Shown here: positions 1-10,105 of the stretch, in pieces
Layout: the number at the start of each line of letters is the position of its first letter
Numbering within the stretch: the stretch's first letter is position 1
Assembly: GCF_020709055.1 (NCBI RefSeq)
Contig: NZ_JAJFCK010000063.1
Coordinates: 1-10,105 of the forward strand
DNA: 10,105 bases
Direction of reading: 5' to 3'
Source: Ruminococcus callidus
Lineage (GTDB): Bacteria > Bacillota > Clostridia > Oscillospirales > Ruminococcaceae
Program-made: the position numbers and the translations under genes
The notes under the pieces: model-generated
What the model was told of the DNA's origin: nothing
The model's input: only the letters and a program-made list of their open reading frames with translations
Database searches by the model: none

Positions 1-189
1 AGGGCACGTGCCCTCTAAGTCGCTGTCCGCAGACAGCGAAATTCCCTGCGCCATGCTTTTGGCGCACGGAGAAGGTGGGTGAGAAAAGCGACAGCTTTTC
101 GAGGGCGGAGCGAACAAGACCGCTCCGCCCTGTGTCCCGTCTGCTGTGCTCTGATTTTGGAAACATTCCGGTGGAATGTTTCCAACGGG
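1..189 (+). repeat. Multi-hairpin repeat, family A, copy A1
   Basis: About 190 bp built from six consecutive hairpins and non-coding in appearance. Stems seen: palindrome 1-14; CGCTGTC/GACAGCG at 21-27 and 32-38; a TGCGCC/GGCGCA stem; AAAAGC/GCTTTT; GGGCGGAGCG/CGCTCCGCCC; and a 13-bp stem at 157-169/173-185 ending in a T run. The same series recurs at 3462-3655 (same orientation) and, inverted and cut by the window end, at 10013-10105. Base changes between copies fall in loops or are compensated across stems (T24-A35 here is C-G in A2; A165-T177 here is G-C in A2), which suggests the folded form is maintained. The left end may extend beyond the window. Function unknown. Confidence 0.8.
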
Positions 190-196
190 TTTTTTT
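157..196 (+). terminator. Intrinsic terminator-like hairpin at the end of repeat A1
   Basis: A perfect 13-bp stem (157-169 with 173-185, loop GGT) is followed by CGGG and seven T residues (190-196). It would stop rightward transcription. No rightward gene is visible upstream, and the hairpin is an integral part of the family A repeat; copy A2 lacks the T run. It may therefore be terminator-like by coincidence. Confidence 0.5.
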
Positions 197-218
197 ATAA
201 CAAAAAGATAGAGGAATA

Positions 219-404
219 AGGCTCCCCTGAAAGGGGTGATTCCCCATGGAATGGGGAAATGTCACGAAGTGACAAAAGGGACCGCTCGGTAAGAGTTGGC
301 AGTGCGAAGCACTGACTGAGGGGTCTTTACACATTACGCAAAAGATTTCACTAGAGCACCCCTCCGAGCGGCTTCGCCGCCCACCTCCCCTTTCAGGGGA
401 GGCC
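219..404 (+). mobile_element. MITE-like palindromic repeat, family B, copy B1 (non-coding)
   Basis: A 186-bp element with terminal inverted repeats: TCCCCTGAAAGGGG near its left end and CCCCTTTCAGGGGA at its right end. Inside are hairpins TTCCCCAT/ATGGGGAA (240-247/251-258), TGTCAC-GAA-GTGACA (260-274), CAGTGC-GAA-GCACTG (300-314) and GCGGC-TTC-GCCGC. A shorter copy with the same ends and same orientation lies at 9821-9955. Relative to that copy, B1 carries about 58 extra bases (roughly 237-295) holding two of the hairpins. No ORF or transposase is present, so it would be non-autonomous. No clear target-site duplication was seen. An alternative is a REP/BIME-like element rather than a transposon derivative. 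Confidence 0.65.
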
Positions 405-423
405 GATTTTCTTGTTCTTTCCC

Positions 424-452
424 TTTATATAAAACCTGCGGACACGGCACAA
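424..452 (-). promoter_or_regulatory. Possible leftward sigma-A-type promoter
   Basis: Read on the minus strand, TTGTGC (447-452) and TATAAA (424-429) are separated by exactly 17 bases. The -10 is good (5 of 6) and the -35 is weak (3 of 6). It would transcribe into repeat B1 and any gene left of the window. It overlaps a GGACACGG palindrome, so chance is a real alternative. Confidence 0.22.
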
Positions 453-459
453 CCTGTCC
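440..459 (+). repeat. GGACACGG palindrome, diverged copy
   Basis: GGACACGGCACAACCTGTCC followed by CTACA. It is one of four related 20-bp inverted repeats in the window (others at 3342-3361, 9769-9788 and 9966-9985). The right arm is imperfect here. The reverse complement of the 9966 copy differs by only one base, so these two form a subtype. Confidence 0.6.
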
Positions 460-500
460 CTACAATCAGCACAAGGACACATCACATCCCGCCAACCCAA

Positions 501-516
501 TGTTTCACGTGAAACA
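501..516. promoter_or_regulatory. parS site 1 (ParB/Spo0J binding), downstream of gyrA
   Basis: TGTTTCACGTGAAACA is an exact match to the 16-bp palindromic parS consensus known from Bacillus subtilis Spo0J and conserved across most bacterial phyla. It lies 74 bp beyond the gyrA stop codon in non-coding DNA. ParB nucleates here, spreads as a CTP-dependent clamp and loads SMC, helping to organise and segregate the newly copied origin. Confidence 0.95.
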
Positions 517-535
517 ATTTCGCCCGGATACAGCA

Positions 536-589
536 ACAGCGGCAGTCGCCCGCCGCTGTCCGGAACGGGAGCTTCTCCCCATCGTTCCG
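536..589 (-). terminator. Tandem hairpins after gyrA, possible terminator without a U-tract
   Basis: Two stems follow the gyrA stop on the transcribed strand: CGGAACG/CGTTCCG (561-567/583-589) and ACAGCGGC/GCCGCTGT (536-543/552-559). Neither is followed by a U run, so this is not a canonical intrinsic terminator. The hairpins may stabilise the 3' end or act with Rho. Confidence 0.35.
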
Positions 590-590
590 A

Positions 591-3242
591 TTATTCTGTG
601 CTGTTCTCCGGCTTCGGCGGGATCGCCTCCGGCTGTACGCTCTGTGCTTCTGCCGGTGCTGCGGACTCTACCAGCGCTGCATTTGCGTCTGCTTCCGGTG
701 TTTCGTCCTGCGCAGCCTCGGTGCGGGTGAACGCAACCACCCTTTGTCCCTCATTGACACGCATGACACGCACGCCCTTGGCAACACGTCCCATCAGGCG
801 AATCTGGTCGCAGGGGGTGCGGATGATAACGCCGTCGCTGGAAATGAACATCAGGTCGTCGCTCTCGTCCACCACCTTGATGCCGCAGACGTCGCCGTGC
901 TCTGCGTCCACCTTATAGTTGGTCAGACCCAGACCGCCACGGGACTGCATCCGGTACTCGTCCAGCGCCGTCCGTCTGCCGTAGCCGTTTTCTGTCACGG
1001 TCAGCAGGGAAGCACCCTTCCGCTCTCTCGCCATGGAAACCACGCTGTCGTCCCCACGGAGGGTGATTGCCTTGACACCGTGTGCCGAACGGGACATGGG
1101 ACGCACGTCCGTTTCGTCAATGCGGATCGCCATGCCCTTTCGGGTGGCGGCAAACAGCCGGTTGGAGCCGTTGGTCAGGCGCACCGCTGCGATCTCATCG
1201 CCCTCGTCCAGACCAATGGCAATGAGTCCGTTCTTACGGACATTCTTATAGGCGGAGAGTGCCGTGCGCTTGATCTTGCCGGCACGGGTGATCATCACTA
1301 CATATTTGCCCTCGTCGAAGTCCGGCGTGGTGAGAACGGCAGCGATCTTCTCGCCGGCGCTCAGAGGCAGGAGGTTGATAATATTCGTTCCTCTGGCGTT
1401 CTTGGAGCCCTCCGGCAGCTCATAGCACTTCAGCTTATACATCACGCCCAGATTACTGATAAACAGGATGTTGGCGTGGGAGGAACTAATCATCAGCTCG
1501 CTGACGAAGTCCTCCTCCCGCTGCTTCATGCCGGTGACACCACGTCCGCCACGGCGCTGGCTCTTATAGGCATCCACGGAGATGCGCTTGATATAGCCGC
1601 TGTCGGTGTAGGTGACCACGCAGTCCTCCACGGGGATCAGATCCTCGATGTCCACTTCGCCCTCCACCGTTTCGATCTGTGTCCGGCGGGCATCGCCGAA
1701 CTTCCGGCGAATCTCCTGCAAGTCGTCCTCGATGATCTGGTACACCCGGCTGCGGTCGCCCAGAATGTCGATGAGGTCGGAGATCTTCTGCACCAGTCCG
1801 TACAGCTCGTCGGTGACCTTCTGGCGCTCCATGCCGGTGAGTGCGCCCAGACGCATCTGCACAATGGCATCCGCCTGCTCATCGGTCAGCCCCACCTTGT
1901 GTTCCAGATGGTAGGTGTCCACATCGTACTGGCTGCGATCCAGCACGGCGGACATATCCACATCGGCAAAGCGTGCTTTCAGGCGCTCCTTGCCCTCCGG
2001 AATGGTCTTGCTGCTCCGCAGGATGGCGATGACCTCGTCAATGTGGTCGATGGCGACCACGAAGCCCTGGAGAATGTGGGCACGCTTCTTTGCCTTTTCC
2101 AGATCGAATCTGGTGCGGTTGGTGATGACCTCCACCTGAAATTGCAGGTACTGTTCCAGCATCTGTTTCAGGCTCAGGGTCTTCGGCTCGCCGTTCACCA
2201 GCGCCAGCATATTGACGCTGACGGTGTCCTGAAGCTGGGTGTAGGAGAACAGCTTATTCAGGACGATCTGCTCGTTGGCATCCTTTTTCAGTTCCACCAC
2301 GATGCGCATCCCCTCACGGCTGGACTCATCCTGAATGTGATAGATGCCCTCGATGCGCTTGTCCTTGGAAAGGCTGGCGATATTTTCAATCAGGCGTGCC
2401 TTGTTCACCATATAGGGGATCTCGGTGATGATGATCGACTGGCGGCCCCGCACCTTTTCGAAGTGAGTCTGTCCCCGCAGGGTGATCTTGCCTCGTCCGG
2501 TGGCGTATGCCGCACGGATGCCGCTTCTGCCCATGATGATACCGCCGGTGGGGAAGTCCGGCCCCTGAATGCACGCCATCAGTTCGTCCATGGTGCAGTC
2601 CGGATTCTGGATCAGCACGTGAATGCCGTCGATGACCTCGCCCAGATTGTGGGGCGGAATGTTGGTCGCCATGCCGACAGCAATACCGATGGAGCCGTTG
2701 ACCAGAATGTTGGGGAAACGGGAGGGGAGCACCTCCGGTTCTTTCAGACGGTCGTCATAGTTGGGGATGAACGGCACGGTTTCCTTGTGAATGTCCGTCA
2801 GCATCTCCAGCGCAATCTTGGACATTCTCGCCTCAGTGTATCGGTAAGCAGCAGGCGGGTCGCCGTCCACCGAACCGAAGTTACCCTGACCGTCCACCAG
2901 CATATACCGCATGGAGAAGTTCTGTGCCAGACGCACCAGCGCATCGTAAACAGAAGCATCGCCGTGGGGGTGATAGCTACCCAGCACCGCACCGACGGTG
3001 TCGGCGCACTTGTGGTATGCCTTATCGGGGGTCAGTCCCTTTTCGAACATGGTGTAGAGAATGCGGCGGTGCACCGGCTTCAGACCGTCCCGCACATCCG
3101 GCAGGGCACGGGCGACGATGACCGACATCGCATATTGCAGGAACGAATCCTGCATCTCTCTGCCAATTTCGATGGGGGTAATTTTTTGTTTTCCGTTGGT
3201 AAAGAAATTTTCTTTTTCCATTGAAGTATTATTATCCATCAT
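591..3242 (-). CDS. gyrA: DNA gyrase subunit A
   Basis: 883 residues. This is the DNA-breaking and rejoining subunit of the A2B2 type II topoisomerase that introduces negative supercoils. The winged-helix/tower region carries the catalytic tyrosine Y135 with R134 beside it (AAYRYTE, 131-137). The quinolone-determining segment is [10 protein letters not shown] (91-100). A C-terminal six-bladed pinwheel begins near 535 and carries a perfect GyrA box QRRGGRG (562-568), which separates GyrA from ParC. The tail from about 841 is acidic and Ala/Pro-rich. I chose ATG 3242: AGGA at 3251-3254 sits 8 bases upstream. ATG 3239 is a close alternative, and the open frame extending to 3581 only crosses repeats and parS. 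Residue A96 replaces the Ser common at the E. coli S83 position. It is separated from gyrB by an extra gene and a 459-bp gap, so it probably has its own promoter, though I could not identify one. Confidence 0.98.
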
Positions 3243-3250
3243 TCTATATT

Positions 3251-3254
3251 TCCT
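3251..3254 (-). promoter_or_regulatory. gyrA ribosome binding site
   Basis: AGGA on the minus strand, 8 bases before ATG 3242 and 11 before ATG 3239. It decides the gyrA start within a frame that stays open for another 113 codons upstream. Confidence 0.6.
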
Positions 3255-3259
3255 ATCAC

Positions 3260-3274
3260 GGCGGAGCTTCCGCC
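3260..3274 (-). promoter_or_regulatory. Hairpin just upstream of the gyrA Shine-Dalgarno
   Basis: A perfect 6-bp stem with a 3-base loop (GGCGGA/TCCGCC), five bases upstream of the AGGA motif in the gyrA leader. gyrB also has a hairpin directly before its ribosome binding site (6211-6235). It could influence translation initiation or mRNA stability. There is no T run, so it is not a terminator. Confidence 0.4.
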
Positions 3275-3311
3275 TGTTTCCCTTTTGGGGGTGTTGTGTC
3301 GTATGGTTCAG

Positions 3312-3327
3312 TGTTTCACGTGAAACA
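3312..3327. promoter_or_regulatory. parS site 2 (ParB/Spo0J binding), gyrA leader
   Basis: A second exact TGTTTCACGTGAAACA, 69 bp upstream of the gyrA start codon. Bound ParB here could also affect gyrA transcription, since the site lies where the leader or promoter should be; that is inference. Confidence 0.95.
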
Positions 3328-3341
3328 TGAGGGGTAACAGC

Positions 3342-3361
3342 GGACACGGCACGCCGTGTCC
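3342..3361 (+). repeat. GGACACGG palindrome, near-perfect copy
   Basis: GGACACGGC and GCCGTGTCC are separated by AC, giving a 9-bp stem, followed by CTACA. It has the same orientation as the 440 copy and the opposite orientation to the copies right of oriC. It lies 14 bp from parS site 2. Confidence 0.65.
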
Positions 3362-3421
3362 CTACAGCAGGCACAAAAGCCATCGTGCAGAAACAAAACG
3401 AACCGCATTCGTGTGATCCGG

Positions 3422-3449
3422 TCAGGCTGCTCCAGCTGAGCACAGCTGG
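3422..3449. repeat. Hairpin sharing 20 bp with the terminator beside oriC
   Basis: TCAGGCTGCTCCAGCTGAGC (3422-3441) is repeated exactly at 9669-9688. Here it folds as CCAGCTG/CAGCTGG (3432-3438/3443-3449), but lacks the complete second arm and the T run present in the oriC copy. It appears to be a degraded copy of that terminator module. Confidence 0.5.
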
Positions 3450-3461
3450 CGAGGTGTTCTC

Positions 3462-3655
3462 AGAGGGCGAGAAGCCCTCTGAGTCGCCGTCCGCAGACGG
3501 CGAAACTCCCTGCGCCGTGCTTCTGGCGCACGGGGAAGGTGGGTGAGAAAAGCGGCAGCTTTTCGAGGGCGGAGCGAACAAGACCGCTCCGCCCTGTGTC
3601 CCGCTTGCAGCACTGCGGTCTTGGAAACGTTCCGGCGGAACGTTTCCAGCGGGAT
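3462..3655 (+). repeat. Multi-hairpin repeat, family A, copy A2
   Basis: A full copy of the six-hairpin element in the same orientation as A1. Stems: AGAGGGC/GCCCTCT (3462-3468/3474-3480), CGCCGTC/GACGGCG (3485-3491/3496-3502), TGCGCC/GGCGCA, AAAAGC/GCTTTT, GGGCGGAGCG/CGCTCCGCCC, and TTGGAAACGTTCC with GGAACGTTTCCA (3621-3633/3637-3648). The C3488-G3499 and G3629-C3641 pairs replace T-A and A-T in A1. It lies between parS sites 2 and 3, antisense to the direction of the gyr genes. Leftward frames crossing it are not considered genes. Confidence 0.8.
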
Positions 3656-3661
3656 TTCACT

Positions 3662-3677
3662 TTGCCGAACTCGGCAA
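3662..3677 (-). promoter_or_regulatory. Hairpin downstream of the gyrB operon
   Basis: TTGCCGA/TCGGCAA, a 7-bp stem with a 2-base loop, 24 bp after the stop of the YcxB-like gene and beyond parS site 3. It is the only candidate 3'-end structure for the gyrB operon and has no U-tract, so termination here is uncertain. Confidence 0.3.
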
Positions 3678-3684
3678 GCGCCAC

Positions 3685-3700
3685 TGTTTCACGTGAAACA
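3685..3700. promoter_or_regulatory. parS site 3 (ParB/Spo0J binding), abutting a stop codon
   Basis: A third exact TGTTTCACGTGAAACA. Only one base separates it from the TGA stop of the YcxB-like gene (3702-3704). It is 373 bp from site 2 and 3184 bp from site 1 (start to start). Confidence 0.95.
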
Positions 3701-3701
3701 A

Positions 3702-4235
3702 TCATGCTTCCGGTTCCGGTTCCTCCGGCAGCTGGGGCGCAGGGGTTTCCGGCGCCGTTTTCGGCAGGATGTAGAACATCTTCCTGCCATCGCACACCAG
3801 ATAGAACCGGTCGAACGCCTGCACATAGGCGCTTGCCAGCATGATGCGGGATTCGGGGATGCGCTCGCTCTCCTCCTCACTCTGCCGGATGCGGATGCGC
3901 AGCACATTTCCGTCGCAGCAGGCGGTGTATTCCGTGCCCTCCAGTTCCCGCACTGCCTCCAGCACCATCCGGCGCTGCTTTCTGGGGTTGTACCACAGCA
4001 TAAAAATGGCTGCCAGACACAGCACCAGCAGGAAGTAGGCGAGGCGGTTGGAGGGGTCATTGACGGCGGAAATGACAAAGCTCACAAAGAGCACGGCAAA
4101 GAGCGCCATCATCACATAGCTGCGCCGGAGGACGTACTTTTTCTGAAAGGCGGTGAACCCGTCCCGATAAAATTCCCGTGGAATGGTGTAGGGCGCAGAC
4201 CACGGAAAGGCGGGGAGCGTCTGAGTATCTGCCAT
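3702..4235 (-). CDS. Small membrane protein, YcxB-like
   Basis: 177 residues. Hydrophobic stretches at about 41-58 and 66-82 make two likely transmembrane helices joined by a short polar turn. A soluble beta-rich part (about 100-159) follows, ending in FYILPK, and then a Pro/Glu tail (160-177). A two-helix hairpin followed by a domain ending in a 'LPK' motif resembles the YcxB-like family, whose function is unknown; this is recognition from shape, not a search. The start at 4235 has AGGAGG at 4243-4248, overlapping the gyrB stop region, with 12 bases between the gyrB stop and this ATG, so translation is probably coupled to gyrB. Why a membrane protein sits in the gyrase operon is not evident. 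Its stop lies one base from parS site 3. Confidence 0.85.
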   Translation of the reverse strand: MADTQTLPAFPWSAPYTIPREFYRDGFTAFQKKYVLRRSYVMMALFAVLFVSFVISAVNDPSNRLAYFLLVLCLAAIFMLWYNPRKQRRMVLEAVRELEGTEYTACCDGNVLRIRIRQSEEESERIPESRIMLASAYVQAFDRFYLVCDGRKMFYILPKTAPETPAPQLPEEPEPEA

Positions 4236-4247
4236 TGTCCGCCCTCC

Positions 4248-6235
<1,988 letters not shown>

Positions 6236-6460: not shown

Positions 6461-6515
6461 GAAAATCGAGTTCTGTTTTTCGGCACCCTCCGACTTTTTC
6501 ACACCTCTGCACAGA

Positions 6516-6548
6516 CTTTCCACAGAGTTTTCAACAGTCTGTGGAAAA
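6516..6548. promoter_or_regulatory. Second DnaA-box cluster, recF-gyrB gap
   Basis: Three DnaA-box-like 9-mers within 33 bp just past the recF stop: CTTTCCACA (6516-6524), TTTTCAACA (6528-6536, one core mismatch) and the inverted TGTGGAAAA (6540-6548, reading TTTTCCACA on the minus strand). The same box types fill the main cluster at 9105-9607, about 2.6 kb away. This could be a DnaA-titrating or gyrB-regulating site, or a secondary origin element. Confidence 0.6.
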
Positions 6549-6571: not shown

Positions 6572-7714
6572 TTATTTTTCCGCCATGTCCGCCAGCCTGC
6601 CGTCTTTCAACAAAAACCGCCTTCCGCCCTCCGGGGAAAGTACGGATTCCGGATGGCAGGTGGTGACGAAAACCTGCATCTCCTGCACGATGGTGGACAC
6701 GACCGCCTGCCGTCTGGCATCCAGTTCGCCCATGACATCGTCCAGCAGCACAATGGGGGATTCCCGCCGCCGCTGGCTGTAGATCTGCGCCTGCGCCAGC
6801 TTCAGGGCGAGGGCAAGACTCTTTTTCTGTCCCTGCGACCCGAATTCCCTTGCCGGTCTGCCGTCAATGCACAGCAGCAGGTCATCCCGGTGCACGCCGG
6901 CACCGGTGTGCCCCAGAAACAGATCAGACTGCCGGCACTGCCGCATCTTCTCCAGATACTGCGCCGCCAGCTCCGGCGAGGACTTTTCCGGCAGGTGTTC
7001 CTGGGCATCCCGTCCGTAAATGCTGGAGGCATAGTGGAGGGAAATGCGCTCTCTGCCGCCGGCGATCTCCCCGTACAGGGGAACGCAGACCTCCGACAGC
7101 CGGCGCACATAGGCGGCACGGCGGACGGCAATTTCCGCCCCCAGCCGGCACAGCTGGCTGTCCCAGACATCCAGCATGGCGTACGCCTGCTCCGGCGGAA
7201 GCTTCTGCTTCAGAACGGCGTTGCGCTGCTGCAAAACCAGCTGATACCGGCGCACCAGCGCCAGCACCGGTGCGGAGAGCTGGGCGCTGCACAGATCCAG
7301 AAACGACCGCCGCCGTTCCGGCCCGCCGCCCACCAGCGACAGGTCCTCCGGCGTAAACACCACGCAGTGGAACACGGAGAACAGACTGCCGCTGCCCCGC
7401 TGGGGCACATCGTTGCACCAGAATTTTTTCTCCGGCGCACCGCTGCCCTTTGCCATGGCAAGGCGGACAGACTGCTGCCGTCTAGCATCCTGAAACTTTG
7501 CCTCCACCCGCAGCGTATCGCCGGAAAAGGGGAGATAATCCCGCTCGTGAGTGCCGCGGAAGCTGCGGCAGCCGGTGAGCGCCCAGATGGCTTCCAGCAG
7601 GTTGGTCTTGCCCTGTGCGTTCTCGCCCAGGATCAGATTATAAGAGGCATCCGGCTCCAGTGCGATCTCACAGAGATTTTTGAAGCCGTCCGCCTCCAGA
7701 CGGGTGATCCTCAT
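6572..7714 (-). CDS. recF: DNA replication and repair protein RecF
   Basis: 380 residues, a typical length. This SMC-like ATPase binds DNA at gaps and, with RecO and RecR, helps RecA load during recombinational repair and replication restart. Visible: Walker A GENAQGKT (30-37), an ABC signature-like stretch [16 protein letters not shown] (292-307) and Walker [11 protein letters not shown] (323-332). The start ATG overlaps the stop of the S4-domain gene in an ATGA (7711-7714), so translation is coupled to it. The internal segment [15 protein letters not shown] (118-132) is also a RecF hallmark. Neighbours dnaN and the S4 gene form the conserved origin operon. The ending MAEK is followed by TAA at 6572-6574. 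Confidence 0.97.
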
Positions 7715-7938
7715 GCCTGACCCGTCACGTGTACCAGAAAGCGATCCACTTCCACGGTATCGCCGGGGCGGATCTTCTTGCCACGCATGGTGCAGACCTC
7801 GCCGTTTACCCGGACAGCGCCCTGCTGCACCAGTTCCTTGGCGAATCCGCCGGTATCACAGAGGCCGGCGAACTTCAGCAGAGAGTCCAGTTTGATATAC
7901 TCGGTCTGAATGGTGACTTCCATTGTCTCTTGTTTCAT
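7711..7938 (-). CDS. yaaA: Small S4-domain RNA-binding protein (YaaA/RlbA type)
   Basis: 75 residues made almost wholly of an S4 fold: [17 protein letters not shown] (15-31), then [11 protein letters not shown] (38-48) and the RPGDTVEV strand (57-64). In B. subtilis the gene at this position (yaaA, also named rlbA) is linked to ribosome assembly; this assignment is by position and fold. The symbol should not be confused with the unrelated E. coli YaaA. The start at 7938 is preceded by AGGAGGG (7946-7952) at 7-base spacing; the ribosome binding site begins right after the dnaN stop (7954-7956). The Met at residue 6 is an unlikely alternative. Its end overlaps recF by four bases. Confidence 0.92.
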
Positions 7939-7953
7939 GGGATATCCCTCCTA

Positions 7954-9060
7954 TCACTGGCGCAGCTGAATGGGCATCAGCAGGAAAATAAAGCTCTCGC
8001 CCTGCGGCGGCACCAGCTTTGCCACACGGTTTCCGCCGGTGAGCTGAATGCGGATCTGGTCGCAGTCGGCAGCACGCACGGCCTCCAGCAGGAAGCGGTT
8101 GTCAAAGCCGATGGTGACATCCGGCCCGCTGATCTGCGCCGGGATCCGGTCGTTGATCTCGCCGATGCCCGTCTTGCACCACACTTCCAGAAAGCCGCCG
8201 GAGAACTTGCAGCGCACCGGCGCATTATATTTGCCGCTGATGAGCAGAGAGCAGCGCTCCAGACAGCGGGTGAGTTCGCTGGTATCCATGGTGATCTCGG
8301 TTTCGAACGCCGTGGGGATGCTGCTGCGGTAGTTGTGGAATTCGCCCTCCAGCAGGCGGGAAAAGACGGTGTAGCCGTTGAATTCAAAGACCACATAGCG
8401 GCGGTCGGCGGAGATGGTGCAAAGCTCGTCCGCCTCATCCCGCAGCATATTGGCAACCTCCAGCAGGGTGCGCTTGGGCACGACAAAGCGGTATGCCTCG
8501 GCGCTGGAGATGGGCTCCTGCCGGACTGCCAGCCGATAGCCGTCGATGGCTGCCACACAGAGCGAATCGCTGGTGACCTCGAAAAGTTCGCCGGTGAGCA
8601 CCGGCTTTGCCTCGCTGACGGATGCGGCGTAGCTGGTCTGGCGGATCATGGAGCTGAGCACCGGCTGTTCGATCTGCATGCCGGCGTTGAGATCCAGACT
8701 GGGGAGGGTGGGGTATTCCTCCGCCGACATGGCGGAGATCTGGAACTGCGTCTCCTCGGAGAAAAGGCGCACCAGATAGTTGTCATCCACTTCCATGGTC
8801 ACGGTATCGCCGGAAAACCGGCGGACTGCCTCGCTGAGCAGACGGGGGAGAATGACAAATTCGCCCACATCATCGGATTCCACATCAATGCTGCGCTGGA
8901 TGCCGAATTCCAGATCATAGCCGGTCAGCTCCAGATTGTCGTGATCCAGCCGGAGTTTCAACCGTTCCAGTGCGGGAATTGTGGATTTCTGCGACACACC
9001 TTTTGCCACGTGGGTGATGGCGGTGTAAAATGATTGGCGGTTACAAGTGAATTTTAACAT
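7954..9060 (-). CDS. dnaN: DNA polymerase III beta sliding clamp
   Basis: 368 residues, the standard three-domain clamp monomer; two form a ring around DNA that tethers the replicative polymerase. Recognisable marks: LTGELFEV (155-162), AIDGYRLA (171-178, usually ATDGHRLA), SRLLEGEFHNY (234-244) and the end LLMPIQL (360-366, usually MPMRL). Start at 9060: AAAGGA at 9071-9076 lies 10 bases upstream on the minus strand. It is the first gene left of oriC and probably heads a dnaN-S4-recF operon. In many Firmicutes dnaA lies on the other side of this DnaA-box region; here no dnaA occurs in the 1045 bp upstream within the window. A promoter was not identified with confidence. Confidence 0.97.
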   Translation of the reverse strand: MLKFTCNRQSFYTAITHVAKGVSQKSTIPALERLKLRLDHDNLELTGYDLEFGIQRSIDVESDDVGEFVILPRLLSEAVRRFSGDTVTMEVDDNYLVRLFSEETQFQISAMSAEEYPTLPSLDLNAGMQIEQPVLSSMIRQTSYAASVSEAKPVLTGELFEVTSDSLCVAAIDGYRLAVRQEPISSAEAYRFVVPKRTLLEVANMLRDEADELCTISADRRYVVFEFNGYTVFSRLLEGEFHNYRSSIPTAFETEITMDTSELTRCLERCSLLISGKYNAPVRCKFSGGFLEVWCKTGIGEINDRIPAQISGPDVTIGFDNRFLLEAVRAADCDQIRIQLTGGNRVAKLVPPQGESFIFLLMPIQLRQ

Positions 9061-9104: not shown

Positions 9105-9607
9105 CTTTCCACAGCAAGTGTCCTGTGGAAACGGGGTTTTTATTAGAAATGCAGCGAAGCTGCAGAAAATAGAAATCAATAGAATGAAAAAGTTAGTAGC
9201 AGTTATAGAGGGACAGGAAAAGTGGAAAGCCGTATTTTTGCCGGAATCTGTGGAGATTTTTCTTCCACGAACCCTTTGTGGAGAAATCGTGGAGAAGTGG
9301 AGAGATTTTTTGCGGGTGGAATGGTGGAAAGATTGTGGAGTGGAAACGAAAAACTTGTGGAGAAATCCGTGGAAAATCCGGCAGATGCCGGCAGCGGTTT
9401 CCACAGCCTGTGGAAACGCCTTTGCACAGCCCTCCACAGGAGATTCCACAGCGGCAGAAGACGCATCCGGGAAATCTCTTGCGGCGGCGAAATTTTTTCT
9501 CCACATTGGTTTTCCACAGCTTGTGGAAAACGGTGTGGAAAACCGGAAATTTTCTGTGGAGAGGCGGTGGAAAGCCAGGATTTTCAAAGAAATCCCACGT
9601 TTCCACA
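9105..9607. other. Chromosomal replication origin: DnaA-box cluster (oriC)
   Basis: Sixteen boxes with a TCCACA core on one strand or the other. Plus orientation: 9105-9113, 9397-9405, 9430-9438, 9442-9450, 9497-9505, 9510-9518, 9599-9607. Minus orientation: 9124-9132, 9249-9257, 9277-9285, 9334-9342, 9356-9364, 9409-9417, 9522-9530, 9534-9542, 9555-9563. The best matches (TTTTCCACA or complement) are 9510, 9522 and 9534. Pairs 9397/9409 and 9510/9522 form head-to-head palindromes, and further GTGGAAA half-matches fill the gaps. The region has no plausible gene and sits next to dnaN, the usual Firmicutes oriC position. Open reading frames here have repetitive peptides caused by the boxes themselves. 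Confidence 0.92.
9137..9208. other. Candidate DNA unwinding element with DnaA-trio-like triplets
   Basis: The stretch between the main box field and dnaN is the least GC-rich part of the origin (many A/T runs from 9137 to 9193). On the minus strand, reading toward dnaN, triplets CTA-TAA-CTG-CTA-CTA (9208-9194) resemble DnaA-trios, which in B. subtilis lie between DnaA boxes and the unwinding element in the same orientation relative to dnaN. It also contains a hairpin TGCAGC-GAA-GCTGCA (9150-9164). Confidence 0.45.
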
Positions 9608-9985: not shown

Positions 9986-10012
9986 GGTGTTTTTGTAGCA
10001 AGGAAAATTCCG

Positions 10013-10105
10013 TTGGAAACGTTCCACCGGAACGTTTCCAAGGTCGCAGTGCTGCAAGCGGGACACAGGGCGGAGCGGTCTTGTTCGCTCCGCCCTCGAA
10101 AAGCT
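10013..10105 (-). repeat. Multi-hairpin repeat, family A, copy A3 (cut by window end)
   Basis: The reverse complement matches the last two hairpins of A1 and A2: the 13-bp TTGGAAACGTTCC stem (10013-10041) and GGGCGGAGCG/CGCTCCGCCC. It is nearly identical to A2 over this part and in the opposite orientation. The remaining hairpins would lie beyond the window. Confidence 0.75.

Follow-up and report, generated by a model that had tools for sequence, protein, structure and literature searches.

Why should three exact copies of one 16-bp palindrome lie in the gaps around gyrA, the gene of DNA gyrase subunit A? The question is raised by a 10,105-base stretch of DNA (hereafter the window), which is the oriC-side locus of a relative of Ruminococcus callidus, within the R. 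callidus group. A motif search of the window found TGTTTCACGTGAAACA at positions 501-516, 3312-3327 and 3685-3700, with 0 mismatches each. By its letters, TGTTTCACGTGAAACA is the standard bacterial parS sequence: it is identical at 16/16 bases to the perfect palindrome called parS in Bacillus subtilis and Mycobacterium tuberculosis in a passage of PMC2346475, and the same 16-mer serves as the parS consensus for gut bacteria in an excerpt of PMC10197239. We consider it highly probable that all three copies are chromosomal parS, at which the ParB (Spo0J) CTPase clamp loads, and that they form part of an origin-proximal parS cluster whose placement around gyrA is lineage-specific and not a gyrase-specific device. 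This reading is carried by the identity of the sequence, its excess over chance expectation, its location, its persistence in three related species and the parS-type ParB proteins of relatives.

The window thus holds 3 exact copies of the parS palindrome TGTTNCACGTGAAACA, none of which has a strand of its own. With gyrA called on the minus strand at 591-3239, the copy at 501-516 lies 74 bp 3′ of the gyrA stop codon, beyond a strong hairpin in the gyrA 3′ region (minus strand; not called as a terminator by the terminator scan), the copy at 3312-3327 lies 72 bp 5′ of the gyrA start codon (3239), and the copy at 3685-3700 lies 1 bp past the stop codon of an open reading frame (ORF) of 177 residues. 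The gene calls used place every copy between genes. Mechanically extended ORFs do run over parS, such as a 996-residue frame with a TTG start; they represent longer gyrA start choices or spurious frames and were taken as spurious, and in the 882-residue product the match to the gyrA family starts at residue 20. The initial annotation had reported three perfect 16-mers in non-coding DNA, too many for chance, and on both counts it was right. No further TGTTTCACGTGAAACA match with up to 3 mismatches was found anywhere in the window, such matches averaged 0.04 over 200 shuffles (at most 1 in any of them, with three never reached), and base composition alone predicts about 1e-6 exact matches per window.

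Chance is accordingly excluded as the origin of the three 16-mers, by the shuffles (0/200 with three) and by the composition estimate, but copies can also be spread by a dispersed repeat, and one is present. An intergenic repeat of ∼190 bp lies at 3474-3657, between the two parS sites upstream of gyrA, with another copy at 10-193, near the third site, and an inverted one at 10000-10105; further copies or parts of it occur in several genomes, for example G001, G008, G010 and G012 (G numbers denote genomes). The parS sites nevertheless lie outside this repeat, and R. callidus and two further relatives (L002 and L003; these L numbers denote gyrA loci) have parS around gyrA with no repeat insert between the sites. 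Spread of parS by the repeat was rejected on these two grounds, and an origin by chance or by repeat copying, taken together, has a probability close to negligible.

The location of the sites agrees with a chromosomal parS function as well. Matches to TTTTCCACA with up to 1 mismatch number 19 in the window versus 2.1 expected for the whole window, and 12 of the 19 fall in a DnaA-box-like cluster at 9105-9607 (no strand), upstream of dnaN. This cluster is most likely oriC, as predicted from the sequence, and the three parS sites would lie roughly 5.4-9.1 kb from it, in a locus with the order dnaN-recF-gyrB-gyrA. The initial annotation had placed the gyrase locus 6-9 kb from oriC, which fits the putative origin adjoining the locus. 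No dnaA was seen in the ORF list of the window; in R. callidus contig C169, dnaA (Pfam PF00308, PF08299) adjoins dnaN.

The comparison of parS positions around gyrA that the initial annotation had proposed found gyrA-flanking sites in three related species. From 377 relatives, a GyrA search of genome contigs retained 80 loci, many of them shortened by contig ends. The nearest GyrA to that of the window is that of R. callidus ATCC 27760 (L001; 88% identity), followed by L002-L006 at 84-87%. Exact parS occurs in 5/80 gyrA loci (L001-L003, L075 and L080), 6 further loci (L008-L013) have variant forms only, mostly TGTTCCACGTGGAACA, and 69/80 have no parS with up to 2 mismatches. Counted to the first base of each parS from the start (−) or the stop (+) of gyrA, the sites lie at −461, −88 and +75 in the window, at −234, −82 and +104 in R. 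callidus, at −365, −126, +93 and +150 in L002, and at −48 and +72 in L003, which has one more site in the recF-gyrB gap. Four species, including that of the window, therefore have exact parS on both sides of gyrA. The site at 3312-3327 has a similarly placed counterpart in all three relatives and the site at 3685-3700 in L001 and L002, while in L075 and L080 parS is found at least 7.7 kb downstream of gyrA. No parS with up to 2 mismatches was found at the gyrA loci of three sister species, L004, L005 and L006 (14.6-22.5 kb; GyrA 84-86% identical).

When the gaps flanking gyrA were compared among the four species (the upstream gap whole, the downstream side cut at 102-300 nt), the only 10- and 12-mers common to all were within parS or extended beyond it by a single base, which indicates that parS persisted while its surroundings were replaced, in the window partly by the ∼190-bp repeat. 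A GyrA plus GyrB tree built on the window and 21 of the 80 loci joins the window with L001 and L002 with L003, each with support of 100. The split that sets the window and L001-L003 apart from L004-L006 has a support of only 61, so that a single gain of gyrA-side parS and a loss in the sisters are indistinguishable. In the neighboring clade of L008-L013, the variant TGTTCCACGTGGAACA is present in up to eight copies per locus, downstream of gyrA. In 5/6 of these loci, the best parB shares the contig and likewise lies downstream of gyrA; the second ParB-like protein in these five cases reaches only 70-88 bits.

A palindrome beside a gene may act in RNA, and parS could in principle serve as a hairpin or terminator in gyrA transcripts. 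A 6-bp stem can form within the parS palindrome, and all three stretches of the gyrA strand that contain it fold better than their shuffles (z-scores of −2.24, −3.78 and −4.06), in part via other stems. Elsewhere in R. callidus, one parS (L112:18946, on contig C113) tops a perfect terminator-like palindrome followed by T residues. An RNA hairpin is nonetheless at odds with the sites themselves, as the gyrase loci of the window, L001, L002 and L003 together hold 13 sites in the sequences compared, every one identical at 16/16 bases, with no compensatory change. Nor do the window sites resemble intrinsic terminators, defined as a G+C-rich stem with a T run directly after it, since 0/11 terminator-like sites in positions 1-4300 cover a parS. 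The terminator scan and the invariant 16-mers together disfavor an RNA element, which we regard as quite improbable.

Across whole genomes, TGTTYCACGTGRAACA sites were found in 18/18 relatives, with 2 to 14 in each, and a control in which the sequence was read backwards gave 0 in all 18. Of the 8 parS sites in R. callidus, three surround gyrA and one comes shortly after dnaN; the noc-parA gap has one, another follows parB, and the remaining two are on contig C113 (noc, parA and parB are named from family matches in R. callidus and from synteny). In this species parS also stands beside noc-parA-parB and beside dnaN-dnaA, and 6/8 sites share a contig with dnaA/dnaN, parB or gyrase genes. In five other genomes (G002-G006), all exact parS are on contigs carrying gyrase, dnaA or parB genes. 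Of the 6 exact sites in G002, 4 are around gyrA, 1 is in the recF-gyrB gap and 1 is between noc and parA; all 3 in G003 are at the gyrase locus, with one mismatched site in the noc-parA gap in addition. Every exact parS in G004 (5), G005 (3) and G006 (2) is on the dnaA/parB side of oriC, and those of G004 are about 7 to 13 kb from the dnaA-dnaN gap.

Two observations count against reading the sites as part of an origin-proximal parS cluster. The 2/8 R. callidus sites on contig C113 could not be placed near oriC, and 17 of the 39 genomes sampled from the order are without exact parS, which makes the exact word not universal there. Synteny was tried as a means of placing the two C113 sites near oriC and failed: no C113 protein had a match in the oriC regions compared (140 kb in G004, 80 kb in G006), and two C113 proteins have their orthologues on contigs other than that of gyrA wherever the gyrA contig is known, except in G018, where the orthologue of one lies ∼81 kb from gyrA. 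The C113 sites have terminator-like surroundings of their own. The one at L112:18946-18961 is the apex of a perfect palindrome with 13 further bp per side, followed by T residues, and is intrinsic-terminator-like, and the one at L112:13103 abuts a terminator-like T run. In G004, the region downstream of the same gene as the L112:18946 site has a terminator-like hairpin without parS.

The relatives were also examined for ParB-family genes, and 18/18 genomes have one above the curated cut-off. This family is broad and is also matched in 10/14 named control genomes, Escherichia coli included. More specific are the residues by which ParB reads parS and Noc reads its own site, as described in part of PMC7383237, onto which we placed the residues of the relatives by eye. 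The arginine and glycine that read parS are present in the best ParB of 18/18 genomes (16 by motif and the other 2 separately). In 11/18 (G001-G004, G006, G007 and G014-G018), the motif also picks out a second member of the ParB family, whose residues are the Noc-type glutamine, lysine and arginine, which leaves room for the window sites to be Noc-binding sites (NBS) or the operator of another regulator. The R. callidus copy scores 290 bits, below the NCBIfam Noc cut-off of 315. By the residues in that excerpt of PMC7383237, however, the Noc-type paralogue is equipped for the Noc site and not for parS.

The DNA itself points the same way. All three window sites read as parS exactly and not as ATTTCCCGGGAAAT, the NBS consensus, and a script search of the window for TTTCCCGGGAAA returned nothing. 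Binding by Noc or by another regulator is therefore very improbable as the function of the window sites. In genomes G001-G006, ATTTCCCGGGAAAT has one exact match in all six together, and R. callidus has none with up to 1 mismatch; G001-G004 and G006 encode the Noc-type ParB paralogue despite this near-absence.

With parS as the preferred identity of the sites, a mechanism of the known type may be outlined. ParB-CTP clamps load at parS, slide to adjacent DNA and recruit SMC, according to a passage of PMC7333895. We infer that the window's own genome encodes a ParB that would load here, spread over gyrA and recruit SMC. ParB dimers would load at each of the three sites, and from there would move over the adjoining DNA and bring in ParA and SMC, and the segment oriC-dnaN-recF-gyrB-gyrA would probably belong to the partition complex. 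Three loading sites around a 2.6-kb gene make coverage of gyrA by ParB likely, and gyrA can reasonably be placed inside a ParB domain.

Does enclosure by parS then link gyrase to segregation? The proposal would be that in the R. callidus group, parS on both sides makes gyrA a ParB-enclosed unit in which the loading of ParB and SMC would adjust gyrase supply or local supercoiling to the segregation of the origin; we find this unlikely. In a related form, ParB at the flanking sites, above all at the one 72 bp before gyrA, would regulate gyrA transcription or local supercoiling and so link gyrase supply to segregation, which we judge equally unlikely. The arrangement is suggestive in that each of the four species has one parS whose first base is 48-126 bp ahead of the gyrA start codon and a second one 72-104 bp beyond the end of the gene. 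There is also precedent: in Pseudomonas aeruginosa, gyrB mRNA falls about two-fold when ParB is in excess, promoters adjacent to parS3/parS4 are repressed by ParB (both from a section of PMC5521831), and gyrase subunits are candidate ParB partners in pull-downs (an excerpt of PMC9927451); a gidB promoter of Mycobacterium bovis BCG has a putative parS overlapping its −10 box (PMC2346475, in part). Sister species L004-L006, however, lack gyrA-side parS, and a consensus-only promoter scan of 4.3 kb found 3 sites versus 1.7 expected, with none over a parS. In B. subtilis, the expression of genes beside parS is unchanged on Spo0J loss, as summarized in part of a review (PMC7022226). Precedent for the coupling of gyrase to segregation thus appears mixed between species, and we treat such coupling as unsupported.

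The interpretation offered by the initial annotation is thus supported in part: the motif is parS, a putative oriC is nearby, relatives have parS-type ParB and the flanking sites recur in three species, while ParB occupancy of gyrA, SMC loading there and an effect on gyrase expression or supercoiling keep the rank of proposals. Three sisters without the sites and the B. subtilis precedent count against a necessary coupling. The sisters also offer a natural comparison for gyrase-segregation coupling. The locus adds a clear case of parS turnover within one group of related species: four of them keep the sites at the gyrase end of the origin region, whereas the three sisters have them on the dnaA/parB side only, the gene order being unchanged. 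This bears on what sets parS number and position and does not imply a new mechanism.

Set beside known systems, the origin-proximal parS cluster is of an ordinary, known type. The locus resembles B. subtilis and other ParABS/Spo0J bacteria in the 16-bp sequence, in its several copies near oriC and in parS-type ParB residues (here in relatives), and is unlike B. subtilis-type systems in having all three window sites in gaps around gyrA. The parS1-4 sites of P. aeruginosa likewise lie in the dnaA-dnaN-recF-gyrB region, but parS1/2 are inside recF (both from part of PMC5521831), whereas the window sites are all intergenic and flank gyrA; the gyrA of P. aeruginosa (PA3168) is located elsewhere (an excerpt of PMC9927451). 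Streptomyces has parS-rich origin islands containing gyrA and gyrB (an excerpt of PMC8743542) and differs in having more parS per chromosome (mean 22.8), a linear chromosome and a bias to one side of oriC.

How usual parS near gyrA is was estimated in the sample of 39 genomes from the order, 22 of which have exact parS (R. callidus among them). In 15 of the other 21, gyrA and parS share a contig, and the nearest distances, obtained by hand subtraction of coordinates, are 0.2, 3.9, 4.3, 5.5, 8.1, 12.7, 13.0, 13.5, 13.6, 15.7, 16.0, 16.2, 21.0, 31.2 and 51.1 kb (13.5 kb, in G031, assumes that its single contig is circular). It is common for gyrA to be near parS because both are near oriC. A site within 1 kb of gyrA was found in 1/15 (G038, 86 bp past the gyrA stop), and close bracketing of gyrA on both sides by exact parS is confined to the R. 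callidus group among the loci examined. In a distant genome, two parS (G058:C9:51473-51517) lie just beside a second GyrA/ParC-type gene (51671-53716). Among the literature matches listed for parS, ParB and gyrA, mostly open-access, there was no report of parS bracketing gyrA in Ruminococcus, and those listed for R. callidus with parS were all unrelated by title.

The remaining features of the window, all of whose genes are on the minus strand, are those of an oriC-side locus. The gyrA product (882 residues) matches NCBIfam TIGR01063 with 1118 bits (cut-off 877) and Pfam PF00521 and PF03989. It is preceded by the 177-residue ORF (3702-4235), which lies between gyrB and gyrA, and by gyrB itself (4248-6194; PF00204, PF00986, PF01751, PF02518). 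Next are recF (6572-7714), identified from its ORF, its RecF/RecN/SMC N-terminal domain (PF02463) and its position in the locus, an S4-domain gene (7711-7938; PF13275, S4_2), which we take to be of the rlbA/yaaA type, and dnaN (7954-9060; PF00712, PF02767, PF02768). The order dnaN-rlbA-recF-gyrB-orf177-gyrA is kept in relatives as far as contigs reach, bar a few without a detected orf177. No matches were returned by Rfam and tRNA scans of the window. The 177-residue ORF is fast-evolving; none of its tested members matched a Pfam family above the cut-off, 2/5 gave a weak YcxB match, and a similar ORF is present at 73/80 gyrA loci. A second, small DnaA-box-like cluster is located at 6495-6548, in the recF-gyrB gap.

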